Positions 11,201 to 36,974 of a stretch of DNA of 40,643 nucleotides are shown here, one piece after another. The stretch is from a virus, in the IMG/VR virus record IMGVR_UViG_3300002334_000163, positions 1 through 40,643 of that record. One strand, written 5' to 3'. A program made the position numbers and the translations under genes. Under the pieces are notes generated by a model. It had not been told where the DNA came from. It ran no database searches and saw only the letters and a program-made list of their open reading frames with translations. Numbering within the stretch: the stretch's first letter is position 1; each line of letters starts with the position of its first letter.

Positions 11201-14200
11201 AAGGTCACAGTAAGGAGGAAGAAGGTAGCAGCAGATGACAAGCTAGAAGACTTCTCTCTAGAGAAGGGTGATAGAATAGACAATAGAGAGACTAGAGCTG
11301 TTGAGGACGCTCAGGAGAATATCAAGGGACTTGAGATATCCTCTGTAGTTACCAAGGATATGACTCAAGAGGAGTTCCTACGTCTAGCTACCAGTGGACA
11401 GAAGAGGATTGATCAGATACGTGAGGAGGGCTTCATAGAGCGTGGGGATCTCACTGAGTATGATGAGGGAGACCCTAGTTCCTTTGCCTTCTCTGAGGAA
11501 GAGTTTAATAAGAGTCCTAACCCATACCTAGTAGTTGATAAGGATGGTAAGGTAAGAGGGCATGAGGGTAGGCATAGAGCTACCCTCTCTGAGGGTGTAC
11601 TAGATACTATACCTGTAACTATAATCTATGAGGGTACAGTTACAGAAGAGCTTACTCCACAGTTTGAGCAGAAGGGGGAGGATACCCTTGAAGATCTAGG
11701 TATAGTAGAGACACCCTTCGTAGAGACCAAGGACCATGCAGAATTCAAGAGTGTAACTAATCTACTTGAGGCACTACAATTAGCTAAGCGTAAGGGTAAT
11801 AAGGCTACTTCAGCACTAGCTAAGATGATCTTAAAGGTAGCTGGTGATACTGATCTGCTTAAGACCATTGTTACTCATGACCCTGGAGCTATAACATCTT
11901 ACTATAGAGCTAGTACTGATACAGTGACAACTAATGATAGAGCTATGGAGGGACTACTCTATGGCACATTCATACATGAGGCAGTACATGCTTTAACTCA
12001 AGGTAAGATCAAGAGTAGTGTAAGTATTCGAGAGAGACTAGATGAGCTTATTAGTACCTCTATGGATAGTCTTCCAGATACCTCTCTAGAGATACTGACT
12101 AAGGCTAGCTTTGATGCTAAGTTAATTAATAAACATGCTGTTGCTCTTAAGGCTGAGTATGGTGAGAGAGCAGTAGTACTTGCGTATGCCCATGCTAACC
12201 CACATGAGTTCCTAGCTATGGCTATGAATAGTAATATGGTCCAAGAGTATATGAAGTCTATTGAGGTTGAGGCTAGTAAAGGTGGCTTCGGTAGAATGAG
12301 GAGTATATGGGATATGTTCATAAGAGGTATCCAAGATGCATTAGGTCTCTCTCCACTGTCCCATACGATGCTTGATGAAGTACTCACTGAGACAGCAGGG
12401 ATTATCTATGAGGGTAAGTTAACTACACCTAGGTTAACAGCAGAGGAGCAGAGAGCTATTGATGAGAGCTGGGAGAGGGAGTGGGCATCCTTTGATAAGG
12501 AAGTAGAGGAGATGGATTTTGAGACTCTAGAGCTTAGCCCTAGTAAGGCTCTAAGTACTGCTAAGGCTGTAGGAGAGAGTACTCTAGATACATTCAAGGA
12601 TGTAGTTAAGAGATACCTAACTCCTGTTAGTGATAGACTTATGGTGATAGCTAAGGATTTAAGTTATCGACTAAGCTATATGGATAGTACTATAGCTCGT
12701 AGAGTATCTGAGGCTATTAAGGTAGGTAATGAATTAGAGGACCAAGCTAAGGGTAATATGAATGATGAGGATCTTAAGAGGTTCTCCTATTTACTGAAGA
12801 GGGCAACTAAGAACTCTATTAGGGAAGCTAATGAGATAGCTAAGAAGAATAAGGTTGACATGGGACCAGCTCAACGTATCCTAGATACTCTTAGTAGTGA
12901 GATGGTAGCCGTAGAGCTTATTAGTAAGAAGAAGGGAGAGAGTGTATACTGGCCTAGAGCAGTTAAGGATATGGATGGTCTGCATGATCACTATGATAAG
13001 GAGGGTATCTTACCTGAGATTAAGAAGGCTCTTAAGGCTAGGGGTATTGAGGCTACTGAGGAGAACATAGCTACTATCATGGCTGATACCTTAGGCAAAG
13101 GTGGGTACCCTCAGCTCCTAGGTAAGCCAGGAGCATCCAAGGCTAGGTCTATGAGGAATCTAACTGAGGAGGGTGCTGAGTTCTACTTTGCACCCTTCGA
13201 TGCCTTTCGTATGATGGCTGAGGATTCCATTAATAGTATAGAGCAACATAGACTAGTGGGTAAGAGTTCTAGATTGTCTCTAGAGATTAAGGCTACTAAG
13301 CTCGCTAAGCGGATAGATAAGATGAAGGGTGAGGGTCTAGATGTGAGTAAGGAGGTTGAGGATCTTAAGGTAATTGGTGAGGATCTGCTAGAGCCTACCG
13401 CTATTAGTAAAGGTGGCATAGGAGCCTTCTTAACTAAGGAGGGTATATCTGGTACAGAGCAGAGAGAGGTTAGAGATATGCTCTTCAATAGATTTAATGA
13501 GAGAGGTATGTCTGAGAACATGCGTCTACTTAAGCATGGTACCTTAGCTATGACCCTGCTTAACCCTACTACAGCTATTAAGCAGTTAGGTGATGTTGGT
13601 ATAGCTATTACTGAGAGGGGGCTTAAGGAGGCTGTCTATGGAGTTAAGGCTGCACTAGGGGATAAGGCTGGTAAGTTTAACCTGTATGAGATGGGTATAC
13701 AGCAGTATATCTTAGAGCAGGGAGAGAGACAGGATAGAACATCTCAGCTACTTGATAAGGGTTTTGGTATCTCTGGCTTTAAGCTTATGGATAACTTCGG
13801 TAAACAAGTATCTTACCAAGCTAGTCTTAAGGAAGTACAGGAGATGAGTAAGGAGGAGTTCCTTAGTGAGTATAGTGATGTTAAGTCTATAGGTAATCTA
13901 GGGGAGTTGTATAATAATATAGCGGAGGGTAAGGTAGGAGACAGAGGGGTACAGGACTTTATGACTTGGAGAGTATCTCAGATACAACCCCTATTCCTAT
14001 CCCAGATGTCAGAGAAGATGCTTACTGCTGGTAATGCTAGAGTATTTGGGATGTTACTCCAGTACTCCCTACGTAGACTAGGTATGCTCTCTACCCACTT
14101 CAATAAGCTTAAGGAGGAGAAGGGTATCTTTGCTGCCTCTAAGTATGCTATAAAGGTCATAGCCGTACTGACTGCTGCTGAGTTCAGTGCTGAGTGTATA

Positions 14201-14668
14201 GCTGGACTACTTACTGGTAAGCCCTGTAAGGATATAGATCAACAGCTAGAGAAGACTATCTTAGGTACAATACTCCTAGATAGGTATACACTGGATAAGA
14301 TGGGAGAGGGTAAGATAGCTGAGGGTATCTTAAGCCTTACTGGTGCATCAGCTATTGAGAGCGTAGATACTATCTTCAAGAGTTCCTTAACTCTCTTCGG
14401 AGATGAGGGCTTTGACTTTAAGATGCTTAAGAATCTACCTATGGGTAAGATACCATACTTCCTGTTTACTGAGGAGGGAGCTAAGGAGAGAGAGAAAGCA
14501 TGGGAGAAGTCTGGTGAGTATAAGCATATCTATGAGGGTGATGATGTGACTAGTGTAGGTAAAGGGGATAAGGAAGCTATACTTAATCAGGTCAAGTCTA
14601 ATGCTATGAGTGGTGCTGATATGTATGCTGGTGGAGTAACTAAGATGGTAGAGGAGTACAATGCCTAG
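8243..14668 (+). CDS. Giant (2141 aa) virion/ejection polyprotein-like protein
   Basis: Start ATG 8243 has a GAGGTAAG RBS. Residues about 105-140 are a Gly/Ala glycine zipper, and a second hydrophobic stretch lies near 170-220. Residues 400-1000 are charged and low in complexity. Around residue 1107 there is a GHEGRHRATL motif like the ParB-like or adenine-modification-like domains of large polyvalent phage proteins. HEAVH at 1245-1249, with Glu 1322 in NPHEFLAMAM downstream, fits a zinc metallopeptidase. The C-terminal 600 residues are helical with a hydrophobic segment (IKVIAVLTAAEFSAECIAGL). It matches T7 gp16 and DarB-type proteins in position and size, so I infer ejection into the host, with possible envelope or antirestriction activity. 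It carries three copies of the palindrome. Confidence 0.7.
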   Translation: MGNIFDDGGDLSTYTIRPESAYADTQRGHFLDYANKVYRGGVEALDMLGRGAETYGADSLGSALRYGADKAKGTSFYKPDIQSYLGEDSAFKQYTGEALEAMTMSIGGAVGGAIVGGIVTGGNPFGAAAGSLSVMGTMFHGGSYSHGMEEAIKYGLSGEAAEDYANEYALWEVIPELIGDAALLIPFVGGTAKVGIKAIAAGLKSGKFTIGAVTDALANKVGTKALAHKWLGATGAGGGTEVLTEFGQNIARENAGMAKAETDFWHTFIVGALAQGAPGAVGTAYSIDQANKITEGLRAGLNSEVPEVRKYTIDQIYEGIAKADEGQASLFREYAYNREKQGLKVELGDNFNKVLSNVGTIREDAQVRQDAEVEYSGYQPNVPNAILEEESTGDVLKDEIGLAVKNKVEQSKVEQASTERDVEAEVTGTLAQREAIRRGSPGVTGALTGPPTRVEVVGDQERATEAYEPTEVPSGPLSQVASIQGQLPTGKDIPSTPQTALDRHHEYWAAPPEIKALYGRKDKEAIMDTTVEEVSKVIVGRDKADIADLLEKTDEPTKQAIVEGTQEVAKAKQGVVSAPTVADKVKAISSVKKAKKDLETVYDYSREEVGTYVSPEVAETEVTKPKQDIPLEAGVEVENVVATYPSGYHVVKVTKDRYVVLKKGEEVDAGAQYTSGAQKGGALTNAKKAAESGDLSTGTRVGQAGRKTKSQKVAGEKRTRDIGTQEKEDVTQWLIDNGYTTTQRREKLDKDGKVIKDQFEEIEILKDDVTNIALATLLQSGDELTKANLNKAIRAEKKAEEKGTEYAQSTKEGGATVYASVGEGIGTTSGITEATAGTEVKTFDEEGKEIGSGDEVVEEELGLTSTEEVRTAPTRPKVLRFHKLKSKKSGKYTGNWVSEWAGSNYEIKAERGKVSLYDGDNLIGTFDNHYEAAQSIGATIKDIAGGKSEQQDTVVASREAERELVGGRAEVDVERRRAKEASKKRGKVTVRRKKVAADDKLEDFSLEKGDRIDNRETRAVEDAQENIKGLEISSVVTKDMTQEEFLRLATSGQKRIDQIREEGFIERGDLTEYDEGDPSSFAFSEEEFNKSPNPYLVVDKDGKVRGHEGRHRATLSEGVLDTIPVTIIYEGTVTEELTPQFEQKGEDTLEDLGIVETPFVETKDHAEFKSVTNLLEALQLAKRKGNKATSALAKMILKVAGDTDLLKTIVTHDPGAITSYYRASTDTVTTNDRAMEGLLYGTFIHEAVHALTQGKIKSSVSIRERLDELISTSMDSLPDTSLEILTKASFDAKLINKHAVALKAEYGERAVVLAYAHANPHEFLAMAMNSNMVQEYMKSIEVEASKGGFGRMRSIWDMFIRGIQDALGLSPLSHTMLDEVLTETAGIIYEGKLTTPRLTAEEQRAIDESWEREWASFDKEVEEMDFETLELSPSKALSTAKAVGESTLDTFKDVVKRYLTPVSDRLMVIAKDLSYRLSYMDSTIARRVSEAIKVGNELEDQAKGNMNDEDLKRFSYLLKRATKNSIREANEIAKKNKVDMGPAQRILDTLSSEMVAVELISKKKGESVYWPRAVKDMDGLHDHYDKEGILPEIKKALKARGIEATEENIATIMADTLGKGGYPQLLGKPGASKARSMRNLTEEGAEFYFAPFDAFRMMAEDSINSIEQHRLVGKSSRLSLEIKATKLAKRIDKMKGEGLDVSKEVEDLKVIGEDLLEPTAISKGGIGAFLTKEGISGTEQREVRDMLFNRFNERGMSENMRLLKHGTLAMTLLNPTTAIKQLGDVGIAITERGLKEAVYGVKAALGDKAGKFNLYEMGIQQYILEQGERQDRTSQLLDKGFGISGFKLMDNFGKQVSYQASLKEVQEMSKEEFLSEYSDVKSIGNLGELYNNIAEGKVGDRGVQDFMTWRVSQIQPLFLSQMSEKMLTAGNARVFGMLLQYSLRRLGMLSTHFNKLKEEKGIFAASKYAIKVIAVLTAAEFSAECIAGLLTGKPCKDIDQQLEKTILGTILLDRYTLDKMGEGKIAEGILSLTGASAIESVDTIFKSSLTLFGDEGFDFKMLKNLPMGKIPYFLFTEEGAKEREKAWEKSGEYKHIYEGDDVTSVGKGDKEAILNQVKSNAMSGADMYAGGVTKMVEEYNA

Positions 14669-16254: not shown

Positions 16255-19200
16255 TTATCCACACTTACTCCATCCACACCCACCACTACACTTCTCACAC
16301 CCCTCAGTAAACTGGAGAGGACTACCACACTCAGGGCATCCCTTCATCTCCACCTCCGTACCCCTAGCTTGTTGGTACATCTTGAGTATCCTGCTGAGGT
16401 GACTAGCAACATCGTTGATAACTACTACGGACTTATCCAATTGCTTAATGATATCCGTGAGTGGTACCCCATACCTCATAGAGAGGCTTAACTGTCTACA
16501 CACGGTGTTCCAGCAGCTATCTATACTAGCGTATGGAAATTTAACGAAGACTTCTACAGGGGCACCTGAGGCATCCTCAGCTACTATGATGTAGACCTTC
16601 TGTCCATCTACTGTCACTCGGTATCTTGTGGCTTTAAGTTCATCTGGGAGAACAGCTTTACTAAAGGACTCTTTGGATCTAGGATTATCCACTGGTCCTT
16701 GCTCTCTAGTATCTCCTTCGGTAGATGCACTAAGTACTTGTGTTTCCCTAGAACCATCTCGATAGATTGTGACTCCCTTACATCCAAGTTTGTATGCGAG
16801 TTCATAAGCCTCCTTAACTTCTTTGACTGTAGTGTCATTAGGCATATTAATTGTCTTACTAATGGAGCTATCAATGTGCTTCTGTAGCACCGCTTGCATC
16901 TTGATATGATCAGACCAGTGGATATCACCGGCACTCTTGAATAGGTCTGGGTTACTGACCATTAGATCCCACTCATACCCTTGTTCAATAGCTTCCTTCG
17001 CCTCTTGTGGTAACCACTTATTAGGCATGATAAACTTAGTTCCATCGAGTACCTCTTTAACTGTCACTGGTGCGTAATATGGCTCACAACCACTGGAACA
17101 GTCTGAAATCATTGATAAAGTTCCAGTAGGTGCTATGGTAGTCAGATTAGCATTACGTCTATAAGGTATCCCATCAGGTATCGTATCATACCCATCATAA
17201 TGCCCCTCCTTCATAGCTAACTCGTAAGACTTCTTATCAGCTTCTCTAGAGATAAACTCCATTACCTCACCAGCAAGGGTACGCCCCTCCTCACTATCAT
17301 AGGGTAGGCCCAACTGGATAAGCATGTCGTGCAACCCCATAATACCTAGGCCAATCTTCCGAGTCCTCTCCATGGCCTCCTGACACTCTGGGATAGGCAT
17401 CACACTAGCATCTAGTATCCTATTGAGGAAGAGGACTCCAGTTCTAGTAGTATCTCTGAGCTTCACATAGTCAACTTGAAGGACATCTCTTGTAACAAAA
17501 TCTTCACCTGTGAATGGCCCGAGACTCATCACATGATTACTTAAGTTAATACTACCGAGCGTACAGTTATGTACACCAATACCATTAGCCCAGAAAGTAT
17601 TAATGTTTGATACCTCTACTATATCAAACACTTCTTCTGAACCAAAGTCCTCCACTGAGGCTACCTTATAAGAAGTCTCATCTGCATACCTACTCCTTAC
17701 AAACTTATCCTTCTTAACGCTAGTCAAGAGACCTACAGTATCCATGAATATATTAGCTGATTGCTTAGTCACCTGTATACGGTACTGGTTATTACGGTTA
17801 CTCTTGAATACAGTTGTAAACTTAGATGTATGGATACCTATAGAGTTAAGGTATGCTACAACTTGATTACCTAGCTTATCACTAGATGTTGCAAAGGCAA
17901 CCTGAGTATTAGCTTTCCCAGATATTCCTGCATCTGCACTAAATAGGCCACGTATAAAGGATCTTTGTTGGGGGTCTGTCCAACTATAGAACTTACTAGG
18001 GAACTCTACCTCAGTACACCTACTTTTAACCATACCAAAAGACTCAGCTATCTCTAGAGAACTTTTCTTATCAGACTGGTGTTGATACCTCTCCTCTGTA
18101 TTAATATTAGGCTTAGTTGTTACATCAAAGGTATTGATAAAGCACTGGCTAATACGATCTTTGATTTCAAAGTCACCATCCTTAGCATTGAAGGATATAC
18201 CCACAGTGGTGCTATACCAGCCATCTCCATGAAGCCAGCCAATCATCTCATGTACTTCGCTAGGTGCATCATACAGTGTATATGGTGTGACACCTGAGAG
18301 AACCTTGACACTCTTACCCACAGTATCCTTAGCATCTACAAAAGATCCACTTACTAGTTCTATCTGATGATCTGGAGTGCATACTAGTGTTGACCTATTA
18401 GATAGGTTCATCTTAATTACAGGTTGAGTACCTTTGTTCACCACCTTAAGATAAGTATGTGCTTTGTAATCAGTGCCAATCACATGAGAAGTACCAGCCA
18501 TATCCTCAATCTTACGTACACCTTGCGGGGTAGTAACAAGTGTACCTTTAGCTAAACAACTCTCATAAGGACGGAGTGGCTGTTCTCCACAGGGATTGGT
18601 ACAATCGAGCTTACCAAGGTGTGGTACAGTGTTCCCCTTCTCTATGGTATCCATAAAGATGACACCCGGCTCAGCACTGGACCAAGCCCTCTGTATCAAC
18701 TCATCCCATAATTCAGTATTCTTACCATAAGTTACATGAGGGTTAAGTACCTCATCCATAAAGCTATCAGTAATACCCACAGACAGATTAAAGTTACTCA
18801 AGACACCTTCAGTATCCTTAACACTAATGAAGTCCCAGATATCTGGATGATCACAGTCCAAAATACCCATGTTAGCCCCTCGTCTACGACCTCCCTGCTT
18901 TATTATGTCTGTTGATACATCCTGTACCTTCATGAAAGACAGAGGCCCAGATGCAACGCCATTAGTACTAGCCACAATACTATTAGAGGCCCGGATTGGA
19001 GAATAATTGCAACCGACACCACCACCGGACTTACTAATGATAGCAGCATCACTATAGAACTTATATATGCTTTCAATTGAATCCTCCACTGGTAGTACGT
19101 AACAAGCTGAGTATGCCTCAATAGCTGTCCCTCCGTTCATTAAGGCAGGGGAGTTAGGTAGGAAGTCCATATCTCTCATAGTATTTATGAATAGGCACTC

Positions 19201-19317
19201 CTCCTCATGGGCCTTACCAAAATATCCACCAACCCTCTCAGTCAGATCTTCCCATGTACTCTCTCCTTCAAGAAAGTAACGCTCCTCAAGTACTCGTTGT
19301 GCTGTTTCTGTAATCAT
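16255..19317 (-). CDS. nrdJ: Adenosylcobalamin-dependent (class II) ribonucleotide reductase with intein
   Basis: It reduces ribonucleotides to deoxyribonucleotides using B12. The 1020-residue product drops to about 689 after removal of the intein (residues 254-584). Conserved features are SKSGGGVGCNYSPIRAS (residues 96-112), the active-site stretch NPCGEQPL (241-248), CTLGSINLSN after the intein, IAPTGTLSMISDCSSGCEPY, and a C-terminal Cys-rich tail (GCPECGSPL, CGWSKCG) typical of NrdJ. No class I small subunit or class III activase is seen, which supports class II. RBS GGAGAG. It is co-directional with dUTPase and the ThyX-like gene, so together they supply dNTPs for phage replication. Confidence 0.95.
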   Translation of the reverse strand: MITETAQRVLEERYFLEGESTWEDLTERVGGYFGKAHEEECLFINTMRDMDFLPNSPALMNGGTAIEAYSACYVLPVEDSIESIYKFYSDAAIISKSGGGVGCNYSPIRASNSIVASTNGVASGPLSFMKVQDVSTDIIKQGGRRRGANMGILDCDHPDIWDFISVKDTEGVLSNFNLSVGITDSFMDEVLNPHVTYGKNTELWDELIQRAWSSAEPGVIFMDTIEKGNTVPHLGKLDCTNPCGEQPLRPYESCLAKGTLVTTPQGVRKIEDMAGTSHVIGTDYKAHTYLKVVNKGTQPVIKMNLSNRSTLVCTPDHQIELVSGSFVDAKDTVGKSVKVLSGVTPYTLYDAPSEVHEMIGWLHGDGWYSTTVGISFNAKDGDFEIKDRISQCFINTFDVTTKPNINTEERYQHQSDKKSSLEIAESFGMVKSRCTEVEFPSKFYSWTDPQQRSFIRGLFSADAGISGKANTQVAFATSSDKLGNQVVAYLNSIGIHTSKFTTVFKSNRNNQYRIQVTKQSANIFMDTVGLLTSVKKDKFVRSRYADETSYKVASVEDFGSEEVFDIVEVSNINTFWANGIGVHNCTLGSINLSNHVMSLGPFTGEDFVTRDVLQVDYVKLRDTTRTGVLFLNRILDASVMPIPECQEAMERTRKIGLGIMGLHDMLIQLGLPYDSEEGRTLAGEVMEFISREADKKSYELAMKEGHYDGYDTIPDGIPYRRNANLTTIAPTGTLSMISDCSSGCEPYYAPVTVKEVLDGTKFIMPNKWLPQEAKEAIEQGYEWDLMVSNPDLFKSAGDIHWSDHIKMQAVLQKHIDSSISKTINMPNDTTVKEVKEAYELAYKLGCKGVTIYRDGSRETQVLSASTEGDTREQGPVDNPRSKESFSKAVLPDELKATRYRVTVDGQKVYIIVAEDASGAPVEVFVKFPYASIDSCWNTVCRQLSLSMRYGVPLTDIIKQLDKSVVVINDVASHLSRILKMYQQARGTEVEMKGCPECGSPLQFTEGCEKCSGGCGWSKCG
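17566..18558 (-). mobile_element. Intein with LAGLIDADG-type homing endonuclease in nrdJ
   Basis: The 331-residue intein starts at Cys254 (CLAKGTLV) and ends GVHN584, followed by extein Cys585. TPDHQIE gives the block B histidine, and the penultimate His and terminal Asn are present, so splicing residues are intact. Two dodecapeptide motifs, MIGWLHGDGW (about 358-367) and FIRGLFSADAG (about 454-464), show a DOD homing endonuclease. The insertion site, just after the NPCGEQPL...YES active-site stretch, is a known intein hotspot in RNRs. One TCTCTAGAGA copy lies inside. Confidence 0.95.
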
Positions 19318-22196: not shown

Positions 22197-22696
22197 TACT
22201 TCACTCCTTCATAATATCCACAAGATATTAATTCATTACAACCTTTAGTATACAGACACTTAGGCACCATCATCTCAGCTAGATCCCTATCTACTATAGC
22301 TACTCCATCTCTGATCTTCATGACTACCTGAGTAGTCTCAACGGAGGCTTTAAAACATAACCTAGCATGGGCTAAACTGATAAGATGTTGGGCATTGAGT
22401 ATGATCATATGATCCACTGGAGTATACCTACCCACCTGCTTAGACCCACCCCTATCACTCCTATTGCTACCTACGTAATGCTGCTGTCCTACCGCTGAGT
22501 GACGTACTAGGTGTGTTGATACGAAGGAGGGGATGCCATACATACATACCTTGAATAGCTGAGTACGCATAGGACTATGCTCACACTTATAAATATTCTC
22601 TAGAGAGATTGTGGACTCTACCTTATTATTCATAGTGAAGCGACATGCCTCTCTCATCAGCTCCTCATCAGTAAGTTTATTAACTATTACCTTCAT
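22196..22696 (-). CDS. thyX: ThyX-like flavin-dependent thymidylate synthase
   Basis: Thymidylate synthase of the ThyX type methylates dUMP using FAD and folate. The 166-residue product is short for ThyX (about 220). The segment SPMRTQLFKVCMYGIPSFVS followed by HLVRHSAVGQQHYVGS resembles the ThyX signature region (RHR...S), but the RHRxxSxNExSxR motif is only partly matched, as in diverged phage versions. Adjacent genes dut and nrdJ support a role in dTTP supply. It could have lost activity. Confidence 0.7.
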   Translation of the reverse strand: MKVIVNKLTDEELMREACRFTMNNKVESTISLENIYKCEHSPMRTQLFKVCMYGIPSFVSTHLVRHSAVGQQHYVGSNRSDRGGSKQVGRYTPVDHMIILNAQHLISLAHARLCFKASVETTQVVMKIRDGVAIVDRDLAEMMVPKCLYTKGCNELISCGYYEGVK

Positions 22697-23286
22697 AACT
22701 TAAGCCCCTTAACAACAGTATTGATACGGTCTATAGTAGCAGCCTGAGCTTCCTCAAGACCACGATAGAATAACTTAGGTAACATCCTATTCATAGTCAT
22801 AGGCTCCCCTGTAGGTAACTTCTTACCTAATAAGTATCTAATAAGCTCCCACTCACAATAACTAGCCTCATCATTACTCTCAACATTCATAAGTATCTTG
22901 AACTCTAGATCCCATGGTCTCTCTTTATACACCTCTTGAACCATAGTACTACCAGTGGTATAATGCTCCCAGTAACTCTCCAGACCCCTCTTCTCACTCC
23001 ACTTATTGTAACCCTTGTATACCTTACGGCCAATGTAGATAGTCTTCTCACGCTTATCAACTACACTATAGATGAATCCATACTTCCCCTCTTCTGGCTT
23101 AAGCCCTACCCAGTGATGCTTATCAATAGCCTTACTACGTACAAAGGTAGCCTCCTCTATAGTATCATATGTACCTAGGTTAACATGCTTGTATTCCTCA
23201 GGCCATACCTTGACACTGAACTTACCGGAGGGCGTAGCGTAGACCCCTTTAGGCAGCTTACGCCCCTCTTTATTATACTCAATCAT
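22693..23286 (-). CDS. AP2 plus GIY-YIG (SegE-like) homing endonuclease
   Basis: The 197-residue protein has an AP2-type DNA-binding segment at residues about 14-50 (GVYATPSGKFSVKVW, LGTYDTIEEA). It is followed by a GIY-YIG-like nuclease core (YGFIYSVVDKREKTIYIGRK, then ESYWEHYTTGS) as in T4 SegE-type free-standing homing endonucleases. It lies inside the operon right upstream of the ThyX-like gene, which may be its target neighbourhood. Such genes move into alleles lacking them by cutting near the insertion site. Confidence 0.8.
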   Translation of the reverse strand: MIEYNKEGRKLPKGVYATPSGKFSVKVWPEEYKHVNLGTYDTIEEATFVRSKAIDKHHWVGLKPEEGKYGFIYSVVDKREKTIYIGRKVYKGYNKWSEKRGLESYWEHYTTGSTMVQEVYKERPWDLEFKILMNVESNDEASYCEWELIRYLLGKKLPTGEPMTMNRMLPKLFYRGLEEAQAATIDRINTVVKGLKL

Positions 23287-26546: not shown

Positions 26547-28511
26547 TCAATGCGTATCCTTCCAGTTAGCCCCTATTTTGTACTCAGCAGTCACAGGTAC
26601 TTTTATACCTAACTCCTTACCTACCTCAGTAGCTAGTTCACATATAACCCTACCTATATCGCCAGCATGTTGAGGACCACAATCACATTCCACTTGGATC
26701 TCATCATGCATCGCTATGACCTGCTTGGCATAGCTAGGTAAGAACTCATCAACCTTAATCATCCACTCCTTAAAGATAATAGCAGCAGCAGACTGGATCA
26801 GTGTATTAAGTAGCTTATGCTTACTACGGATGTATACCCTACGTCCATCAAGGGTCTTAATGTATGTACTGTGTATGGAGTAGGAGGCCTCAAGATCCTC
26901 TATAAGTAAATAGATAGCAGGATACTTAGCATAGAAGGCTGCCTTAATAGCATTACCATTCATACTACTATTAGCTATGGACTCAAGCTTAGCAGCACCA
27001 GCACCATACATAAGTGCGTAAAGTATTGATTTCGCAGTGTTTCTATCTACTCCCCAGAGATCTGCATTAGCTTGATGGAAATCACCCTTAAGTATCTCAT
27101 CAACTAGATCTTGGCCACCCTTATAGGGTAAGCAATAGTGGGCTAAGACTACTGCCTCAATACCACTGAGGTCAGCCCCTATTAAGTAGCTATCCTTAGG
27201 TACAGTGAATAGCTCACGTAACTCTGAGCCATAAGGAGTACTAGGTCTAGGGATATTAACTACACCAAAATGCCTGTACCTTCCCGTATTTGTTCCGCAT
27301 GTAAACCCATCAGCACTGATACGTCCATCACCACGCCCTCCCTCCTCTCTCTCACAAGCAAGAGCTAGGAGACCTGTCCACTTACCATCCTTCTTCCTTC
27401 TCGTCAGGAGCATACCTTTACGGTGCTTGAGGATGTTATAACGAGCTATGTCTTGACCAAGACCAGGAGGTAGACTTGAGTAGCTATCTTCAGTAAGCTT
27501 AGGTCCAGTCCTTACCCAACTTCCATCAGGTAACTTCTTACTGTTGTACTCCGTAGGGTTCCACCCAAGGTCCAGTAATAACTTGGAGACCTGAACAGGA
27601 CTGTTAAGATTCAATGTATCTATCTTGATCTTAGTGAAGGGACCCTTGGCACATACCTTATCATAAGCTTCCTCTAAGTCTATTTCTGCCCTAATTGTAT
27701 TATAACTCACCTCTTTAGCTTTCTCTAACTCACCTAGGGCTACTTGAACACCCTCATCATCCTTACCAAAGTAGTTCTTATTGACAGAAGCAAAGCTACC
27801 AGCCTTCGTCCTAGCTGCTTGTCCCTTAGTACCTATGGACCTAGCTTCCTCTTGCTTAGCCTTAGCTATACCAACTATGGAGACTGTCTTAGGTACATCC
27901 CTAAGTATCTTCATCTCTAGAGACCTAAGCTCATCCTTCAGCTCCTTATATAACTTGATAGCCTTAGGTATATCTAGCTTCACTCCATCAATTACCTGTT
28001 GAGCATGTATGTAGGCTACCTCTTGCTCAAGATCAAGGGCCTTATTAAAGTCTCCCCTAGTCTTCTCAAATTCTCCTATCAAGTACTCATAGACCTTAGT
28101 GCCTATGATGACATCACTATCACACCTCCACTTCATATCATCAGAGTACGTAGACCAGTCCTCATGCTCCACCTTCTGTTGGTTGAGGTGTAGTCTCTTA
28201 GCCCAATAGTCTAAGCCATGTCTACCCTCAGGATACATAAGACAAGAGATCATGAAGGTATCTATAATCTCTTGGCCCTTACCTGGACTCCAGCTATATA
28301 ACTTATTGAACATCTTGAAGTCATAACCAGCTATGTTATGACCCACTAATCTCGTAGCTGTTCCTAGATACCTTAAGCCCTCTTCAATCTCAGTGGGGCC
28401 GAAGTGTCTAGCCTCATCCTCCTCTATACAATACGTAGATATACAATGGCATACTGTAACTCCTACTAGTAGGTCATTAGCCTCAGCATCAAAGACTATA
28501 GTCCTCTCCAT
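26547..28511 (-). CDS. DNA polymerase family A (T7-like)
   Basis: It replicates the phage genome. The 654 residues contain a 3'-5' exonuclease domain (IVFDAEAND, with Asp8 and Glu10, and HNIAGYDFKMFNKLYSW) and a polymerase domain. Motif A is LIGADLSGIEAVVLAHY (Asp447), motif B RNTAKSILYALMYGAG and motif C AMHDEIQVECD (His602-Asp603-Glu604). The size is close to T7 gp5 (704). The start overlaps the previous stop as TAATG. A partner thioredoxin-binding insert is not obvious. Confidence 0.95.
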   Translation of the reverse strand: MERTIVFDAEANDLLVGVTVCHCISTYCIEEDEARHFGPTEIEEGLRYLGTATRLVGHNIAGYDFKMFNKLYSWSPGKGQEIIDTFMISCLMYPEGRHGLDYWAKRLHLNQQKVEHEDWSTYSDDMKWRCDSDVIIGTKVYEYLIGEFEKTRGDFNKALDLEQEVAYIHAQQVIDGVKLDIPKAIKLYKELKDELRSLEMKILRDVPKTVSIVGIAKAKQEEARSIGTKGQAARTKAGSFASVNKNYFGKDDEGVQVALGELEKAKEVSYNTIRAEIDLEEAYDKVCAKGPFTKIKIDTLNLNSPVQVSKLLLDLGWNPTEYNSKKLPDGSWVRTGPKLTEDSYSSLPPGLGQDIARYNILKHRKGMLLTRRKKDGKWTGLLALACEREEGGRGDGRISADGFTCGTNTGRYRHFGVVNIPRPSTPYGSELRELFTVPKDSYLIGADLSGIEAVVLAHYCLPYKGGQDLVDEILKGDFHQANADLWGVDRNTAKSILYALMYGAGAAKLESIANSSMNGNAIKAAFYAKYPAIYLLIEDLEASYSIHSTYIKTLDGRRVYIRSKHKLLNTLIQSAAAIIFKEWMIKVDEFLPSYAKQVIAMHDEIQVECDCGPQHAGDIGRVICELATEVGKELGIKVPVTAEYKIGANWKDTH

Positions 28512-29240: not shown

Positions 29241-29837
29241 CTACCCCTCCTTGACCATTGACTTAGGTACCCCATCATTCTTACAGGTCTTCTTCATATA
29301 CCTGTTGCTAGCTATATGGAAGACAACTATACCCTCTGGGTCCATGAATCCTGGGGCTACTACAGAGCCACAATTAATAAGATCAAGTATAGCTATGTCA
29401 ATAGATACTGTATCAAAAGGACCATGGAATAGCACAGGTACTACACTACAACAAGCTGGACAATTATCATCAGTCCATCTACCAGTATTGAAGAGGGAGA
29501 ACCTACGCTCAGTCATACCATACTTACGTTGGATCTTAGACCCCCACCACTCACCATAGTGTCGTCCAGGTCCAAGCTTAAGTAGCTCCTCCTTATTCTC
29601 CTCAACCCACTTGGCAAATCCATAGTTATCATCCCATGGATATACCCAACGGTTACGGGAGCCAGCTAGTATATCCTTACCATCATCCCATGGATATACC
29701 CAACGGTTACGGGAGCCAGCTAGTATATCCTTACCATCATCACTAATGCACACTTGAGCATTAGTCCCATCAATCTTCTCAGTAATTACAATGTCTCTAG
29801 AGATACGAGCCATCTTAGGAAACTTAATAAAATCCAT
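29241..29837 (-). CDS. RNA-ligase-family protein with internal 18-residue duplication
   Basis: The 198 residues match phage proteins of the RNA_ligase family: catalytic motif EKIDGTNAQ (Lys21), then AGSRNRWVYPW, NYGFAKWVEENKEELLKLGP, GRHYGEWWGSKIQRKYG and FSLFNTGRW, then CSVVPVLFHGPFD. A perfect 54-bp tandem duplication repeats the GKDILAGSRNRWVYPWDD block (residues about 34-51 and 52-69), which sits just behind the nucleotidyl-transfer lysine. Whether activity survives is unclear. It probably seals RNA breaks, for example in host tRNAs cut by defence nucleases. Confidence 0.8.
   Translation of the reverse strand: MDFIKFPKMARISRDIVITEKIDGTNAQVCISDDGKDILAGSRNRWVYPWDDGKDILAGSRNRWVYPWDDNYGFAKWVEENKEELLKLGPGRHYGEWWGSKIQRKYGMTERRFSLFNTGRWTDDNCPACCSVVPVLFHGPFDTVSIDIAILDLINCGSVVAPGFMDPEGIVVFHIASNRYMKKTCKNDGVPKSMVKEG
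29628..29735 (-). repeat. 54-bp perfect tandem duplication, in frame
   Basis: The copies 29628-29681 and 29682-29735 are identical and a 5-base partial third follows. They add 18 residues to the RNA-ligase-family protein immediately after its catalytic motif. Relatives known to me have one copy. Confidence 0.95.
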
Positions 29838-29852
29838 ATGTACTTCCTCCTA

Positions 29853-31583
29853 TTAGAATGTTGATGGACTCTCTACTAATCTCTTAAGAGTCTGATCATA
29901 TTTAAGTTGGCATACCTTACCACTCTTACTCCCATCCAATCTACTCTTAAGTATTCTAACCTTAAGGGTATCCCTAATATCATCATCATCATTAAGGAGA
30001 TCCCTCTCAAGTCCTAGTATAAGAGAGGAGTAACGGTACTGGCTCCTACTCCCAGTCATCTCAGAGGCTAGGACTCTACCACCATTCTCATGTGGCTTAC
30101 CCTTAGCATTATTAAGGTGATTGACTAGAATAACAGATAGTCCAGTCTCCTGAGTAATCTTAATCATATCACCCATAATAACCCCAAGTAACTCATTACC
30201 CTCGCTACTATTCTTACCTATGACAAGAGAGGAGACTGGATCTACTATAGCCACCTCCATACCTAGTGAGCAGAACTGCCTCATGCTAGCTATCATAGCC
30301 TTCCAATCACCATTGTAGTGTGATGAGTCATAGATAAGGCAATTCTTCTCTAGAGATGTGGCTACTCTGTCTGCCTCTTTAGCATCATATGTAACTCCAG
30401 GTACACCGATGGCGACACCCATCTCATACGCTACAAGATTCCTAAGTACAGTCTCAGGACTCTCTTCAAGACTATAGATACCTACTCTTATACCATGCTT
30501 ATCCATTAGCTCCTTATGGATAGCTCTAACGAAGACTGTCTTACCCGCTGATGGTGCTGCTGCTACACTTATGATTGATCCCTTAGATATACCATAGATA
30601 AGATTATCTAATGTAGGCCAAGGTGTTGAGTACCCTAGTGGTATAGCTTCAGATAGACTATGCTTCAAGTCCTTGATATTAACTAGGGAGGGTGGTCTGT
30701 ACCTACCAGCATCAAAGTATGAACTGATAACCTCTTGCTCCTTACCCTCAGTTAACATCTCATTAACATCTTTATACTTACCTAAGTCCATAAAGAGGGC
30801 GTCTGGATACAGACTAGCACAATCCTTAGCGAAGACTTGACCAGCAGCATCATTATCAGGACATATGATTAACTTACTGAAGGATGATATGAACTTATGA
30901 TTATCATTAAGACTCTTAAGATTAGCCCCAAATGGGAGGGAGCAGATGACTGGCTTAGCATACTTAGTAGTACCTAGGATTGTATCTAGAGACATAGCAT
31001 CAATCTCTCCCTCAGTAATTACCAACGTCTTACTAGTGAGAGCATGACGTTGACCGAAGAGTTCAACCTTACGCCCCTTAGTACTAGTACCATGGGTCTT
31101 GAAGTCCTTGGGTAATTCTCTGTACTTGGTGCATAGATCAGTACCACCCACCTCATAGATAGGGTGACTCAATCTCTTCAAGTCTTTGCCCTCATAGCTA
31201 CCATAGACTTGATACTTCTTAAAGGTAGCTGGTGGTATACCACGGTAATCACTCTCTACATCTTTGTCAACTCTAGCTGCTCTAGGTACTGTCTTAGCTA
31301 CCTTAGTCCCCTTCCTCTTCCTACTAGGGATATCCTCTAGCATCTCAAAGATATTTGTTGTAATCTCTACGCTCCCACTTATACTTGATAATGTTTCTTC
31401 CACATCTTCATCCTCCTCTCCACCTTCACTTTCTACTCCATCCCTCTCATAGTATGACTTACCATTACCGTGGTAATCATACTTAAGGCAACACCACGTA
31501 ACCCCGTCCTCCATTAAGAATAGGTGATCTCCATCTCTATCATGGCCTAGCTTTTGACATTGAGGGCAGCTACGATTACTCAT
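29853..31583 (-). CDS. Primase-helicase (T7 gp4-like)
   Basis: It unwinds the fork and makes primers. The order of parts in the 576 residues is an N-terminal zinc-binding domain (CPQC at 6-9, CC at 31-32), an acidic linker, a TOPRIM primase domain (LVITEGEIDAMSLD with Glu191; CPDNDAAGQ with Asp243 and Asp245), and a RecA-type DnaB-like helicase domain. The helicase carries Walker A APSAGKTV (343-350), Walker B-like EVAIVDPVSSLV, and DDDDIRDTLKVRILKSR. The size is close to T7 gp4. It overlaps the small zinc protein by 8 nt. Confidence 0.95.
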   Translation of the reverse strand: MSNRSCPQCQKLGHDRDGDHLFLMEDGVTWCCLKYDYHGNGKSYYERDGVESEGGEEDEDVEETLSSISGSVEITTNIFEMLEDIPSRKRKGTKVAKTVPRAARVDKDVESDYRGIPPATFKKYQVYGSYEGKDLKRLSHPIYEVGGTDLCTKYRELPKDFKTHGTSTKGRKVELFGQRHALTSKTLVITEGEIDAMSLDTILGTTKYAKPVICSLPFGANLKSLNDNHKFISSFSKLIICPDNDAAGQVFAKDCASLYPDALFMDLGKYKDVNEMLTEGKEQEVISSYFDAGRYRPPSLVNIKDLKHSLSEAIPLGYSTPWPTLDNLIYGISKGSIISVAAAPSAGKTVFVRAIHKELMDKHGIRVGIYSLEESPETVLRNLVAYEMGVAIGVPGVTYDAKEADRVATSLEKNCLIYDSSHYNGDWKAMIASMRQFCSLGMEVAIVDPVSSLVIGKNSSEGNELLGVIMGDMIKITQETGLSVILVNHLNNAKGKPHENGGRVLASEMTGSRSQYRYSSLILGLERDLLNDDDDIRDTLKVRILKSRLDGSKSGKVCQLKYDQTLKRLVESPSTF

Positions 31584-32521: not shown

Positions 32522-33796
32522 TCAATACTCTAGCTCCCCATCTTCTATCTTTATAGTTCTCAGTACCTTAACATTACTGAACTTAGGTATACCTCTAGCA
32601 GTCTTATCATGGTACTGGACTTCAGCTACCGTCTTACGTCCACTTCCTACAGGATTACTACAATAAGCTTCCCATCCCCAGGCTGCCCTATCTTTATCAC
32701 TCCACATAGGTACAGACTTAAAGGTACCAGCACTACACTTAAGCTCAAAGTATACTAGTCCATCCTTATCTCTCAGTACATTAGCTACTGGGTACTCAGC
32801 GGTAATTATAGGCTTCCTCTTGAGTATCTCTGGTGTCCTACCACTACAATAGATACCACCCAGTGTCCTATATACAGCTCCTTCGTAACCCTTATCAAGA
32901 CAGTACTGATAGAACTCATCAGCCTCCTCCTCATTGTTAATGACTTTCTGGGGTACTACATGGATATTAGTCTTATCCTTATAGTACTCCCTGTACTCCT
33001 CCAGTATAGCCAATCTCTCAATGAAGGGTTTAGCTACTGGTATATCAAAGATAAAGTAGTGTAGTTCCCCTTTATCCCAGTGTTCATACTTAGTTACTAC
33101 TGATTGGATTCTCTCTAGCGAAGCATTAGGTATGTATAACTCTCCATCAGTATCATGAGTTGAGCCTAAGTTAAGCCATATGTGCCTTGCTATAATAACC
33201 TTACGACCCCGGCTCATCAGTGGGGTATCCATCTCATATGTACATCTGATACCATCAATCTTACCGCTAGCTACTATGGGATACTCGATCTTATCCTTAA
33301 GATCATCCCACTTTCTCAATAGGGAGCATGAAGTAATCTTACCCTCTCCCTTCTCAGCTTCAGTCCTACTCTTGTAGTATCCCTTCTTCCTTAAGTAATT
33401 CTTACGCTTTAACACAGTCTTATTCTTAGCAACTGTTGAGCTATCATTCTTAGTATTCCCTATGCACTTAACCTTGAATACCTTAGTACCATTCCCATCT
33501 CTTCTCACCGTATAGCTATACTCATCTGAGTAAGCCATCACTACTTGGGTATCCTTACCCTTATAGATAGGCGGCAAGAACGTCAACTTAACATCATCCT
33601 CTATGATTAACTTAAGGTCCATCTCTTTACCACACTGAGATCCCTTATCAGATACATACTCTCCAGAGAGATTATTTAATTGTCCACCTACTCTACATAA
33701 GATATCACCCACCTTACTACCCTCATATCCAGCACCACCCTGCCTTCTATCATAAGTACCAGGACAATCCTTACCCACTACATAATACTCTACCAT
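32522..33796 (-). CDS. ATP-dependent DNA ligase with N-terminal extension
   Basis: It seals nicks in replicating phage DNA. In the 424 residues the catalytic motif is ASGKIDGIRC (Lys179), followed by MSRGRKVIIARH (motif Ia/III region), DTDGELYIPN, and EGAVYRTLGGIYCSGRTPEI with ILKRKPIITAEYP, then an OB-fold-like C-terminus. About 150 residues precede the usual start of the nucleotidyltransferase domain. They contain YDRRQGGAGYEGSKVGDI and are not matched to a family here. RBS GAGGAGGG. Confidence 0.88.
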   Translation of the reverse strand: MVEYYVVGKDCPGTYDRRQGGAGYEGSKVGDILCRVGGQLNNLSGEYVSDKGSQCGKEMDLKLIIEDDVKLTFLPPIYKGKDTQVVMAYSDEYSYTVRRDGNGTKVFKVKCIGNTKNDSSTVAKNKTVLKRKNYLRKKGYYKSRTEAEKGEGKITSCSLLRKWDDLKDKIEYPIVASGKIDGIRCTYEMDTPLMSRGRKVIIARHIWLNLGSTHDTDGELYIPNASLERIQSVVTKYEHWDKGELHYFIFDIPVAKPFIERLAILEEYREYYKDKTNIHVVPQKVINNEEEADEFYQYCLDKGYEGAVYRTLGGIYCSGRTPEILKRKPIITAEYPVANVLRDKDGLVYFELKCSAGTFKSVPMWSDKDRAAWGWEAYCSNPVGSGRKTVAEVQYHDKTARGIPKFSNVKVLRTIKIEDGELEY

Positions 33797-33865: not shown

Positions 33866-34033
33866 TTAACGTCTAATGAAGAGGTAGCAGATGTCCTCCT
33901 TACGTCCTACGTATGCCTCTGCCTCATCCACATGGCAGAGACTAGGTCTATTGGTATGGAACTTACAATCCTGACACTTAACCTCTGTAATATCAATGTT
34001 GCTTCTATCTCTATTCTCATTCACTTTAGTCAT
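33866..34033 (-). CDS. Small Cys-rich protein (55 aa)
   Basis: AAGGAG with correct spacing precedes ATG 34033. The product contains VKCQDCKFHTNRPSLCHVDE and a fourth Cys near ICYLF, giving a Cys4-type metal site. It ends 69 nt before the ligase start. A short inverted repeat (TAGGGCT/AGCCCTA) in that gap may be a local mRNA structure. Confidence 0.65.
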   Translation of the reverse strand: MTKVNENRDRSNIDITEVKCQDCKFHTNRPSLCHVDEAEAYVGRKEDICYLFIRR

Positions 34034-34071: not shown

Positions 34072-35343
34072 CTATAACTTAATTGTACGGATAAACCCCG
34101 CTATTGCAGTCCTTTCACCATCATCAGCTATCTTATTAGTGAAGGACAGATTGATAGCCTGAGGTAGTGGTAGATGAGCCTCCTCATGTATACTCAGCAT
34201 TACCATAAGACCCCGTGGACTCAGAGTCAGACTAATCTCATCCTTAGCATACCCACTCCTAACTAAGTTCGCTAGAGAGATTAACTTCCGTATATCTGTA
34301 CTCTTAATCTTAGGATACCTCTTAGTGAGCATCTTAAGTTCCTGCCCTTCGCTTAAGTAGTCCACCTTAATAGTGATACCGATACGATCAAGAGTACTGG
34401 TGTCCTGTAATTGAGTAGACCCAAACTTACCTATATCATCACCAGTACCTAGGACATTATCAGTAGTGAAGATACGTGCCTCTACTACAGGTATGATAGT
34501 CTTATCCTTAACTGTTCCAGGCATATCATCAATGATTAAGACACCACCCTTCTCCAATAAGCTCTGAAGAGTCATCATAATACCAGCAGGGATCTTAAAG
34601 ATCTCATCAATACAGATCATGTATCCCTGCATCAAGCCTTGAGGAAGCATGCCTAGTTTGAAGTCCATACCACCGACCTCAGCCCATGGCATACCTAGGA
34701 AGGATGCAGGATCAACACCATCCTTACCACCTAGCTTCATGTATGGTTGTTGTATCCATGCAGCGAACTGGTGGATAGCAGTAGTCTTACCAGTACCTGG
34801 GTATCCCTGGAGCAGTATCCTCTCATTCAGCTTATAGCCAATGATGATAGCCTCAAGTACATTAGCATCCCAGTAGTACTCCTCATTCACATCCGGGATA
34901 TCTTGACTTAACTCATTATCCCAGTGACCATGGGGGTAGAAGGAGAATACATGATCTACTCCACTGTCCGGCAATCTTCCATCCGTGATATCACTGAGCT
35001 TAAGCTCTCCATCACCTGTTATCACCGGAATTACTTCGGGTTCCTTCGGCTCCTCCTCTTTCTTCTTCGCTAGAGAACCGAAGTTACCAGCCTCACTGTC
35101 CAGTAAATCGTCTAAGGCCTGTTGGTCATTACTCTTGACCGAAAGAATATCACCTATATCCATAGCACTCCCTTGCTCCTCGTTTTCCTCAGTTATATTC
35201 CTCTTAATCTTACTAGGAAGCATAAACACATCACAGTTATCTAAGTGTACATCACCATCACTATCTATAAATACTATAGTATCAATACCTTTGTACTTAT
35301 ATCTATCATCATACTCAACTTCATCCCCTGCTTCAAGCCTCAT
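34072..35343 (-). CDS. MoxR/CobS-like AAA+ ATPase
   Basis: The 423-residue protein has an acidic N-terminal 150 residues and an AAA+ domain with Walker A GYPGTGKTT (180-188), Walker B MICIDE (242-247) and a sensor-2-like STLDRIGITIKVDYL region. MoxR-type proteins such as CobS of cobaltochelatase act with a VWA partner, here the adjacent gene. In phages the pair is common but its target is unknown. It could remodel a complex or insert metal into a cofactor. Confidence 0.8.
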   Translation of the reverse strand: MRLEAGDEVEYDDRYKYKGIDTIVFIDSDGDVHLDNCDVFMLPSKIKRNITEENEEQGSAMDIGDILSVKSNDQQALDDLLDSEAGNFGSLAKKKEEEPKEPEVIPVITGDGELKLSDITDGRLPDSGVDHVFSFYPHGHWDNELSQDIPDVNEEYYWDANVLEAIIIGYKLNERILLQGYPGTGKTTAIHQFAAWIQQPYMKLGGKDGVDPASFLGMPWAEVGGMDFKLGMLPQGLMQGYMICIDEIFKIPAGIMMTLQSLLEKGGVLIIDDMPGTVKDKTIIPVVEARIFTTDNVLGTGDDIGKFGSTQLQDTSTLDRIGITIKVDYLSEGQELKMLTKRYPKIKSTDIRKLISLANLVRSGYAKDEISLTLSPRGLMVMLSIHEEAHLPLPQAINLSFTNKIADDGERTAIAGFIRTIKL

Positions 35344-35354
35344 AGCTCCACCTC

Positions 35355-36974
35355 CTACCTAATTATATTCTTAGACATAACCTGAAGGATAGCTGGCTCT
35401 AAGTCCTCAGCATCATTAATAGTCTGGAAGTTACTATAGTAGTCCTCTACACATTGAGTGAAGATACCTATAGCAGCTAGGTTTACCCTACCATCCTCCT
35501 CTATACTCTTGCATACTTTGCGTAAGTACATTCCACTATCACCATACCCATTACCCGCTGGTTGTCCATCAGATAGGACTAGGAGTACTTTACTACGCTC
35601 CTTCCTATGCAATAGATGCTCCATACAGTACGTCAATGCCTCTCCATCACTATTACAACCCATGCTGACGTTATAGCTTAAGAAGCGTTTAACGAGTACC
35701 TCTCTAGAGACTAGTGTCTCCCCATATCTCCTGAATTGGTGGTATAGGTTCATACTCTGGCTAGTACTGAAGCCTATGATCTCATGGTTTATCTTAAGGT
35801 CTTGTAGTATGAGACTAGTAGCTATACAAGAAGCTGAAGCATACCTAAACTTAGTGCCAGACATAGAGCCACTACAATCACAGAGGATGGATACCGCTGT
35901 CTCAATCTCAAGCCTACTACTATTCTTCTGCTTAAAGATTGATGGGATACCCCCACCCCTATTAGTATAGACTCTACTGATAGCCTTATTATTAAGCCTA
36001 CCCTTCTTAAGTCCATACTCATAGCCTGATTGACGCATACTTAAGAGGTGACGCTTGACCTTCTTACTCAGCTTCAGTGTATCAAGCAGCCTATTAAGCT
36101 CAGCTACTTCAGGCTGACGTACCTCCATATTAGGCACCACCTCTCTAGAGAACTCTTGAGCATCCCTAGGTATATACTCATGGCTATCCCAATCATACTC
36201 CACCTCCATCTTAGTGGATTGACCAAGGATATTAGCAGACTCTAGGGCCTCTGAGGCATTGAAGCCTACACCATGCTCCTCTGCTCCCCCTTCATCCTTG
36301 ATACTACTATCTCCAGGCTGATCCCCCTGTCCGTCTTCATTATCTCCTCCTCTATCTTTGCCACCCTCACCTTCTTCATCATTACCACCCTCCTGTTGAT
36401 CCTCTTGCTCTTGCTCCACTGTCTCCACTAGCTGAACTAACTCTCTTAGCTCCTCCTCAGTACTGCAATGGTTGAGCTTAGGTATGAATCCATTCCTCTC
36501 TAGAGTACTTAACTCATCATCGTGGACATAGGATTGCCAATCATTCCTAGCCCTAGTCAATGTATGCATAAGTTGCTCTAACTTATCATCACCTATACTA
36601 GAGGTATCGAAGCCATCCATAATCCTACTTCTATGATTACTAAGAATCTCATCTCTACCCTCGTACTCCCCTAGCTTAGCCCTCTCAGCTATATAGTCCG
36701 TGAGTAATCTATGAGTTGCCTCACTACGACTACCCTCCTCATACTGTTGGGACTGAGTAAAGGCTACCTCCTTAAAGTTATGACTGATACACCTATGTAA
36801 CTCAGGTTCATATACATCAAGATTCTCAGGACTCGGGGCGGATAAGTGGATAGTACCATTATGAGAGTATGGTCTGAAGGTAGCATCACCACGGGAGCTA
36901 ATGTTGATCTTGATATCATCTTGGTTAGCCAATGATTTGGCGAATGTTAAGCTACTGTTCAAATCCCACCGCAT
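35355..36974 (-). CDS. CobT-like VWA-domain protein (partner of the AAA+ ATPase)
   Basis: The 539-residue protein has a helical N-terminal part, a very acidic low-complexity middle (EEGEGGKDRGGDNEDGQGDQ), and a C-terminal VWA domain with MIDAS motif ILCDCSGSMSG (Asp366, Ser368, Ser370) and VLLVLSDGQPAG. The domain order matches CobT of aerobic cobaltochelatase and other MoxR-VWA partners. It is 11 nt upstream of the ATPase gene in the same direction. The metal or protein client is unknown. Confidence 0.8.
   Translation of the reverse strand: MRWDLNSSLTFAKSLANQDDIKINISSRGDATFRPYSHNGTIHLSAPSPENLDVYEPELHRCISHNFKEVAFTQSQQYEEGSRSEATHRLLTDYIAERAKLGEYEGRDEILSNHRSRIMDGFDTSSIGDDKLEQLMHTLTRARNDWQSYVHDDELSTLERNGFIPKLNHCSTEEELRELVQLVETVEQEQEDQQEGGNDEEGEGGKDRGGDNEDGQGDQPGDSSIKDEGGAEEHGVGFNASEALESANILGQSTKMEVEYDWDSHEYIPRDAQEFSREVVPNMEVRQPEVAELNRLLDTLKLSKKVKRHLLSMRQSGYEYGLKKGRLNNKAISRVYTNRGGGIPSIFKQKNSSRLEIETAVSILCDCSGSMSGTKFRYASASCIATSLILQDLKINHEIIGFSTSQSMNLYHQFRRYGETLVSREVLVKRFLSYNVSMGCNSDGEALTYCMEHLLHRKERSKVLLVLSDGQPAGNGYGDSGMYLRKVCKSIEEDGRVNLAAIGIFTQCVEDYYSNFQTINDAEDLEPAILQVMSKNIIR

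Follow-up and report, generated by a model that had tools for sequence, protein, structure and literature searches.

A CobS/CobT-like AAA+ and VWA gene pair in a virus with a class II ribonucleotide reductase: a probable relative of the cobaltochelatase subunits that may remodel a client in phage DNA metabolism

We analyzed a 40,643-nucleotide stretch of viral DNA (positions 1 to 40,643 of IMG/VR record IMGVR_UViG_3300002334_000163; hereafter, the window), focusing on two adjacent open reading frames (ORFs) that resemble the CobS and CobT subunits of cobaltochelatase. The two ORFs share the minus strand and are separated by an 11-base gap:

34072..35343, minus strand: CobS-like AAA+ ATPase, 423 aa (AAA_5, E 3.3e-9; PHROG 249, 9.3e-42; TIGR01650, 1.8e-30, 106.3 bits).
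35355..36974, minus strand: CobT-like VWA protein, 539 aa (CobT_C, E 6.7e-24; VWA, 2.3e-7; PHROG 1576, 1e-40), with an N-terminal domain (N-domain) bearing HNFKE (residues 65-69), an acidic linker (residues ~185-240) and a C-terminal VWA domain with a metal ion-dependent adhesion site (MIDAS).

The VWA ORF also matched PHROG 17276 (1.9e-37) and the CobT family TIGR01651 (8.4e-19, 67.7 bits). Both genes were thus confirmed where the initial annotation had placed them, as CobS/CobT-like proteins by profile, and the profile E-values ruled out a chance similarity to the CobS/CobT families.

The catalytic residues of the pair were compared among 13 phage proteins including those of the window. In the AAA+ protein, G180, G183, G185, K186, D246, E247, N296, R320 and R377, which we take to be the Walker A, Walker B, sensor and arginine residues, occupied invariant columns. 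Similarly, D366, S368 and S370 (DxSxS) and D469 of the MIDAS were invariant in the VWA protein. As judged by these alignments, the ATPase and MIDAS residues of the pair are intact. CobS was compared with a relative 73% identical to it over 113 codons, giving a ratio of nonsynonymous to synonymous substitution rates (dN/dS) of 0.17 at a dS of 1.5, which is near saturation; at the codon level, part of CobS is under selection. For CobT and the same relative (199 codons), dS was saturated and dN was 0.30, and hence no ratio was obtained; the HNFKE-bearing stretch was conserved between the two. The predicted VWA domain of the window matched the MIDAS domains of NorD and midasin (Z ~18-20), i.e., the pair resembles NorQ/NorD and midasin in having a VWA domain that partners an AAA+ protein. 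The mean predicted local distance difference test score (pLDDT) of the whole CobT model was a modest 66.9, with confidence in the N-domain below that in the VWA domain.

By profile, the AAA+ protein was CobS-like, scoring 106 bits compared with 19 bits for the next family. However, neither protein reached the cut-off of its equivalog family, which is 558.55 bits for CobS (TIGR01650) and 759.05 bits for CobT (TIGR01651). CobS proteins over the cut-off (591-641 bits) were found in 6 of 15 bacterial genomes that carry the phage-type pair, identified with an enterobacterial/rhizobial-type profile. The Pfam family of the CobT N-domain, PF06213, had no match in the window VWA protein at E up to 1; it was matched by 8 of 13 phage CobT-like proteins. 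The pair shares with CobNST the side-by-side AAA+ and VWA genes and the order of the CobT parts (N-domain, acidic linker, VWA domain). With the phage CobS profile, solved CobS (9ujv) scored 267 bits in one stretch and midasin 438 bits in six stretches, and solved CobT (9uka) scored 224 bits with the phage CobT profile. Unlike CobNST, the phage pair lies far under the equivalog cut-offs, has no CobN in its record, has relatives with an HExxH motif that sampled cellular CobT proteins lack, and has an AAA+ protein that the best tree places outside the clade of cellular CobS. The absence of CobN, as the initial annotation had reported, was borne out: PF02514 (CobN and Mg-chelatase H) had no match in the 40,643 bases, which is weak evidence because the record is probably a fragment, given that no gene for a terminase, portal or capsid was named by PHROG scans of 30 of its ORFs. 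The pair should not be filed as a cobaltochelatase, although it is related to CobS/CobT.

We assessed how widely the two genes occur together. By tblastn against phage records, CobS-like matches were found in 70 records and CobT-like matches in 49, all below 60% identity. Hosts named among the phage matches listed were Vibrio, Rhizobium, Klebsiella, Escherichia, Salmonella, Pseudomonas and Stenotrophomonas, with Synechococcus for CobS. Relatives of CobS in Staphylococcus/Listeria phages were rejected as host evidence, being weak matches to OC phage CobS in which the pair was not shown. Viral contigs scanned with a CRP-810/T5S1-type profile yielded 245 relatives, and we kept the 80 best; as single queries in the contig scans, the window's own proteins found one locus each. 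Both genes were present in 99 of 107 loci (L003-L109), always on one strand, and 88 of these had a gap of at most 300 bases; in the remaining 8 loci the stretch ended within 600 bases of CobS. The same two-gene unit, PHROG 249 with 1576 or 17276, is found in ICP2, SSU5-type phage-plasmids, RHEph10, CRP-810 and cyanophages. Compared with ICP2, the window AAA+ protein was 28% and the VWA protein 27% identical; the HExxH motif is kept in ICP2 (HECYH) and lost in the window, which has a DNA ligase near the pair. In two of the Staphylococcus/Listeria phages, 812 (L223) and LP-110 (L224), a CobS-like AAA+ gene was followed by a shorter gene with no DxSxS by eye. In four phages of the DNA polymerase III type (L004, L005, L008 and L012), CobS has an N-terminal Cys/His stretch resembling a zinc finger, which the window protein does not have.

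The AAA+ tree comprised 79 AAA+ cores, and the VWA tree was built without NorD rows. In the AAA+ tree, the MoxR, NorQ and cellular CobS rows formed one group each (100/100). Window and Vibrio phage ICP2 were joined (99/95), both on long branches, and were paired again in the VWA tree (100/98); the backbone of the AAA+ tree, including the order of window, NorQ and cellular CobS, and the deeper order of the VWA tree lacked resolution. The six NorQ rows made a clade of their own with the window AAA+ protein outside it, unlike a NorQ. The initial annotation had considered that the pair might fall in non-cobalt MoxR groups; instead, the profile was CobS-like and the tree placed the window in neither the MoxR nor the NorQ clade, so that membership in both was rejected.

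The CRP-810/T5S1-type viral sequences grouped with the six cellular CobS proteins (100/99), leaving out other phage types. This grouping, together with an HExxH motif that is widespread in phages and absent from all six cellular CobT proteins, would fit a viral origin of the CobS/CobT cobaltochelatase motor: bacteria would have captured an older phage AAA+/VWA pair with a zinc-metallopeptidase CobT-like subunit and domesticated it, HExxH would then have been lost, and phages, including this one, would still use the pair otherwise. An approximately unbiased (AU) test rejected a clade of all phage and viral CobS rows without the cellular ones (p 0.0089, all rows); however, the rejection was lost without the long-branch rows L009, L126 and L132 (p 0.0965). 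For this reason, and because few cellular sequences were sampled, we lowered our assessment of a viral origin from tentative to doubtful. Among these rows, L126 and L132 are further distant CobS-like AAA+ proteins in Kluyvera and Parasutterella genomes.

Among phage-type CobT-like ORFs of at least 400 aa, 88 of 93 (the window among the 93) had HExxH in the N-domain, within residues 31-200, as did 39 of 44 clusters at 50% identity. The motif was lacking in L008, L012, L055, L106 and the window, which has HNFKE; L055 and L106 carry one extra residue, as read from the sequence. None of the six sampled cellular CobT proteins had the motif, and solved CobT aligned weakly with the phage N-domains (E 0.013) and had other residues in place of the motif. 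The helix after the motif contains D94 and E98, which were invariant in 33 N-domains including that of the window. The N-domain of an HExxH-bearing relative was modeled at a pLDDT of 91.2, and Foldseek returned no match for this model at 0.001. In a second structure comparison, 11 of the top 14 rows were metallopeptidases, but at Z of 4.9 or less; they included dipeptidyl-peptidase III, selecase, IRAP, ArdC and jannalysin, a group presumably made up of HExxH enzymes. These matches to a predicted model suggested a zincin-like fold of the phage CobT-like N-domain. Most rows of cyanophage VWA partners, among the matches listed, were annotated as peptidase. The available text of PMC8651126 calls this annotation a mistake; going by the HExxH motif, it may be apt. 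We also observed that AcrIIA26 (PDB 9zq6_B) has a 57-residue stretch in common with the phage CobT N-domain profile, near N-x2-ED-x2-IE (E 5.4e-4), which may be chance.

The window encodes an enzyme that requires vitamin B12:

16255..19317, minus strand: class II (B12-dependent) ribonucleotide reductase (RNR) NrdJ, interrupted by an intein (TIGR02504, NrdJ_Z, 544.3 bits; cut-off 399.95 bits).

A class II RNR in the same virus, as the initial annotation had stated, was therefore borne out. Matches of the NrdJ type were broken between residues 254 and 584, and an intein, absent from that annotation, occupies residues ~255-583 (window ~17569-18555; LAGLIDADG_3, 6.5e-10; Intein_splicing, 7.8e-6); it starts with Cys and ends with His-Asn ahead of a Cys, as read from the translation.

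The initial annotation had offered two readings of the pair: either it supports cobalamin production by a host that has its own CobN, or it is a general MoxR-VWA remodelling pair. In the former case, the pair would hijack host CobN (or a mosaic chelatase) and raise cobalamin for the phage class II RNR, as the available text of PMC8651126 already proposes for viral CobST. The CobS/CobT-like profiles and the RNR of the window agree with this proposal, and it predicts hosts with CobN. We carried out the host check, which the initial annotation had suggested, on the hosts of relatives. A CobN-family protein was present in 7 of the 15 bacterial carriers. However, PF02514 was absent in the other 8, namely a betaproteobacterial metagenome-assembled genome (MAG), Oxalobacter sp., a Sutterellaceae MAG, a Piscirickettsiaceae MAG, and strains of Kluyvera sichuanensis, Buttiauxella gaviniae, Morganella psychrotolerans and Parasutterella muris; 3 of these 8 are titled MAG, in which a contig may be misplaced, and the completeness of the 8 assemblies is not stated. 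CobN was matched in 5 of 14 control genomes, and the E. coli genome of this set was not one of those matched. E. coli K-12 MG1655 is the host given for phage PhiR41_1, and 219 of 5,426 E. coli genomes contained a pair with 95-99% identity to the PhiR41_1 genes, at 228 places, all in plasmid records. The hosts of two further phages also argue against the hijack: according to the portions of the papers available, V. cholerae, host of ICP2, is without de novo B12 genes (PMC8244777), and CRP-810 infects the CHUG lineage, which is said to be without cobG and cbiX (PMC11288001).

The coupling of the pair to B12-dependent RNR was surveyed in 38 pair-carrying records, namely 12 annotated phages plus 26 contigs picked for length from the 80 viral ones. 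NrdJ_Z exceeded its cut-off in 5 records, all of the T5S1 type, which counts in favor of the hijack. However, any RNR large-subunit match was found in only 15 of the 38, and 23, including ICP2, had none. One contig (G020) had a split NrdJ-like match, another (G016) weak matches only, and W02 and W06 lower-scoring RNRs whose class is not settled. A 159-base ORF of CRP-810 annotated as RNR A subunit was matched by neither RNR profile. RNRs similar to that of T5S1 were found in 155 phage records (E 1e-60 or better; class not checked individually), and T5S1 was the sole overlap between the RNR and CobS lists among the matches listed (60 of 155 and 60 of 70, respectively). The words 'CobS' and 'cobaltochelatase' are absent from the available text of the cobavirus paper on phages with class II RNR (PMC6775973). 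No Rfam family reached its gathering score in the window, and thus no cobalamin riboswitch was found at that threshold. Across the records surveyed, the pair did not generally go together with a B12-dependent RNR as it does in this genome. Given that relatives have hosts without CobN and that the coupling to class II RNR is weak, the family as a whole lends the B12 reading little support, and we regard the hijack as rather improbable. Support of B12 production through host CobN fails as an account of the family, although it may yet apply to this virus, and the remodelling option is the one favored.

We then considered what surrounds the pair. The following genes of the window lie downstream of it:

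33866..34033, minus strand: small ORF, 55 aa, between the pair and the ligase (ORF only).
32522..33796, minus strand: ATP-dependent DNA ligase, second ORF downstream of the pair (PF01068, 5.5e-9; PHROG 114, 7.6e-43).
29853..31583, minus strand: DNA primase/helicase (PHROG 239, 2e-114).
26547..28511, minus strand: family A DNA polymerase (PF00476, 1.9e-30; PHROG 17, 3.6e-110).

When the window and the 12 annotated phages were compared, 10 of the 13 genomes had a polymerase, clamp or ligase gene no more than three genes away from the pair. The neighbor was annotated as DNA polymerase III alpha in PhiR41_1, pJN2-26, RHph_X66, hairong and BUCTxx99; SSU5 has a gene labeled simply DNA polymerase, S-WAM1 and OC have a T4-type clamp, T5S1 has a DNA polymerase ORF, and the window has the DNA ligase. 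The exceptions were ICP2 and Mae-Yong1326-1, whose fourth gene is a primase and a RecA-family gene, respectively, and CRP-810, with a DNA-repair glycosylase and an integrase near the pair. In all 15 bacterial loci, a DNA polymerase III alpha-like gene lay downstream of CobS, starting 55 to 1,704 bases on, and in 8 T5S1-type viral loci a primase/helicase or PolA lay within ~1 kb of the pair. Since the three SSU5-like phages are close kin, these cases represent approximately three or four independent lineages.

Other ORFs of the window were observed in passing. The ORF at 22693-23286 (minus strand) resembles GIY-YIG homing endonucleases and has a weak AP2-like N-terminal match. An RNA ligase at 29241-29837 (minus strand; PF09414, 8.5e-12) contains a tandemly repeated stretch of ~18 residues, and the first ORF (2-475, plus strand) ends in tandem seven-residue repeats (KKVILKA), both read from the translations. 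A 2,141-aa ORF at 8243-14668 (plus strand) had no PHROG match at 0.01.

Taking these results together, we lean slightly toward the reading that the pair is a MoxR-type AAA+/VWA remodelling machine of a phage CobS/CobT-like family, probably serving phage DNA metabolism. The AAA+ protein would form an ATP-driven ring on which the VWA protein docks, and the MIDAS and N-terminal domain would present a client for remodelling, by analogy with NorQ/NorD, midasin and CobS/CobT. In most phage relatives, the N-domain carries HExxH like zinc metallopeptidases, a putative activity indicated by the motif; in the window, HExxH appears to have decayed to HNFKE, and the N-domain may have been kept for another role, probably docking. 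Because the pair adjoins replication genes in several unrelated phage types, the client would most likely be a component of phage DNA replication or metabolism. Inserting cobalt into the corrin ring would not be the task of the pair.

Several points weigh against this reading. The literature searched gives no experiment on the pair, and no client is known. A CobN-family protein occurs in nearly half of the bacterial carriers, as described above, and the AU test does not reject a clade of the window with cellular CobS (p 0.061; 0.097 with ICP2). Of 68 viral loci of at least 9 kb, 60 matched neither the primase/helicase nor the PolA references, a small set with which other replication genes in those loci may be missed; most of these 60 are of the CRP-810 type, and the annotated primase/polymerase of CRP-810 lies ~9 kb from the pair. 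In addition, synteny inside each lineage may be plain inheritance.

Two further functions were weighed for a machine of this kind. First, it could be a virion-assembly chaperone, as reported for archaeal virus ATV and proposed for the jumbo-phage MoxR-vWA-metallopeptidase pair, whose description and proposed role in virion assembly we take from the available text of PMC7824862. The group 2.2 jumbo-phage pair, compared by description only, has a similar architecture of AAA+ protein, N-terminal metallopeptidase-like domain and VWA domain, and a terminase match was found in 37 of the 68 viral loci (integrase in 33, DenV in 30). Unlike the jumbo-phage pair, the window has a degenerate motif in place of HExxH; moreover, the pair lies among replication genes in several phage types, and in the 12 annotated regions the only virion name was a 'putative portal protein' in L013, whose note reads cold shock protein. 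We consider a role in virion assembly unlikely. Second, the pair could be a host-takeover or counter-defence unfoldase that takes a host complex apart and that, in most relatives, would also act as a peptidase. HExxH in most relatives and the broad host range, from Alphaproteobacteria to Enterobacteria, would fit such a role; however, this analysis linked neither a defence gene nor a host target to the pair, and the window has lost the motif; we give this possibility little credence.

The phage pair and the idea of a CobN hijack are already in print (PMC8651126, available text). In the portions available, PMC11705849, PMC11288001, PMC9599517 and PMC7029224 list the pair as auxiliary metabolic genes, the first two doubting the function. 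In the literature searched, which was not exhaustive, we met no study that checked the carriers for host CobN and none that connected HExxH with phage CobT, and the main text of PMC8969562, on SSU5-like plasmids, contained none of 'cob', 'AAA', 'VWA' and 'porphyrin'. Viral cobS/cobT have thus been reported in several papers as vitamin B12 auxiliary metabolic genes. If the pair is instead a remodelling machine, such reports overstate the effects of viruses on B12, and a machine that is widespread in phages, with a domain that is probably peptidase-like, is without an assigned function. As the pair is present in E. coli phage-plasmids, the question can be tested directly in a host without CobN.

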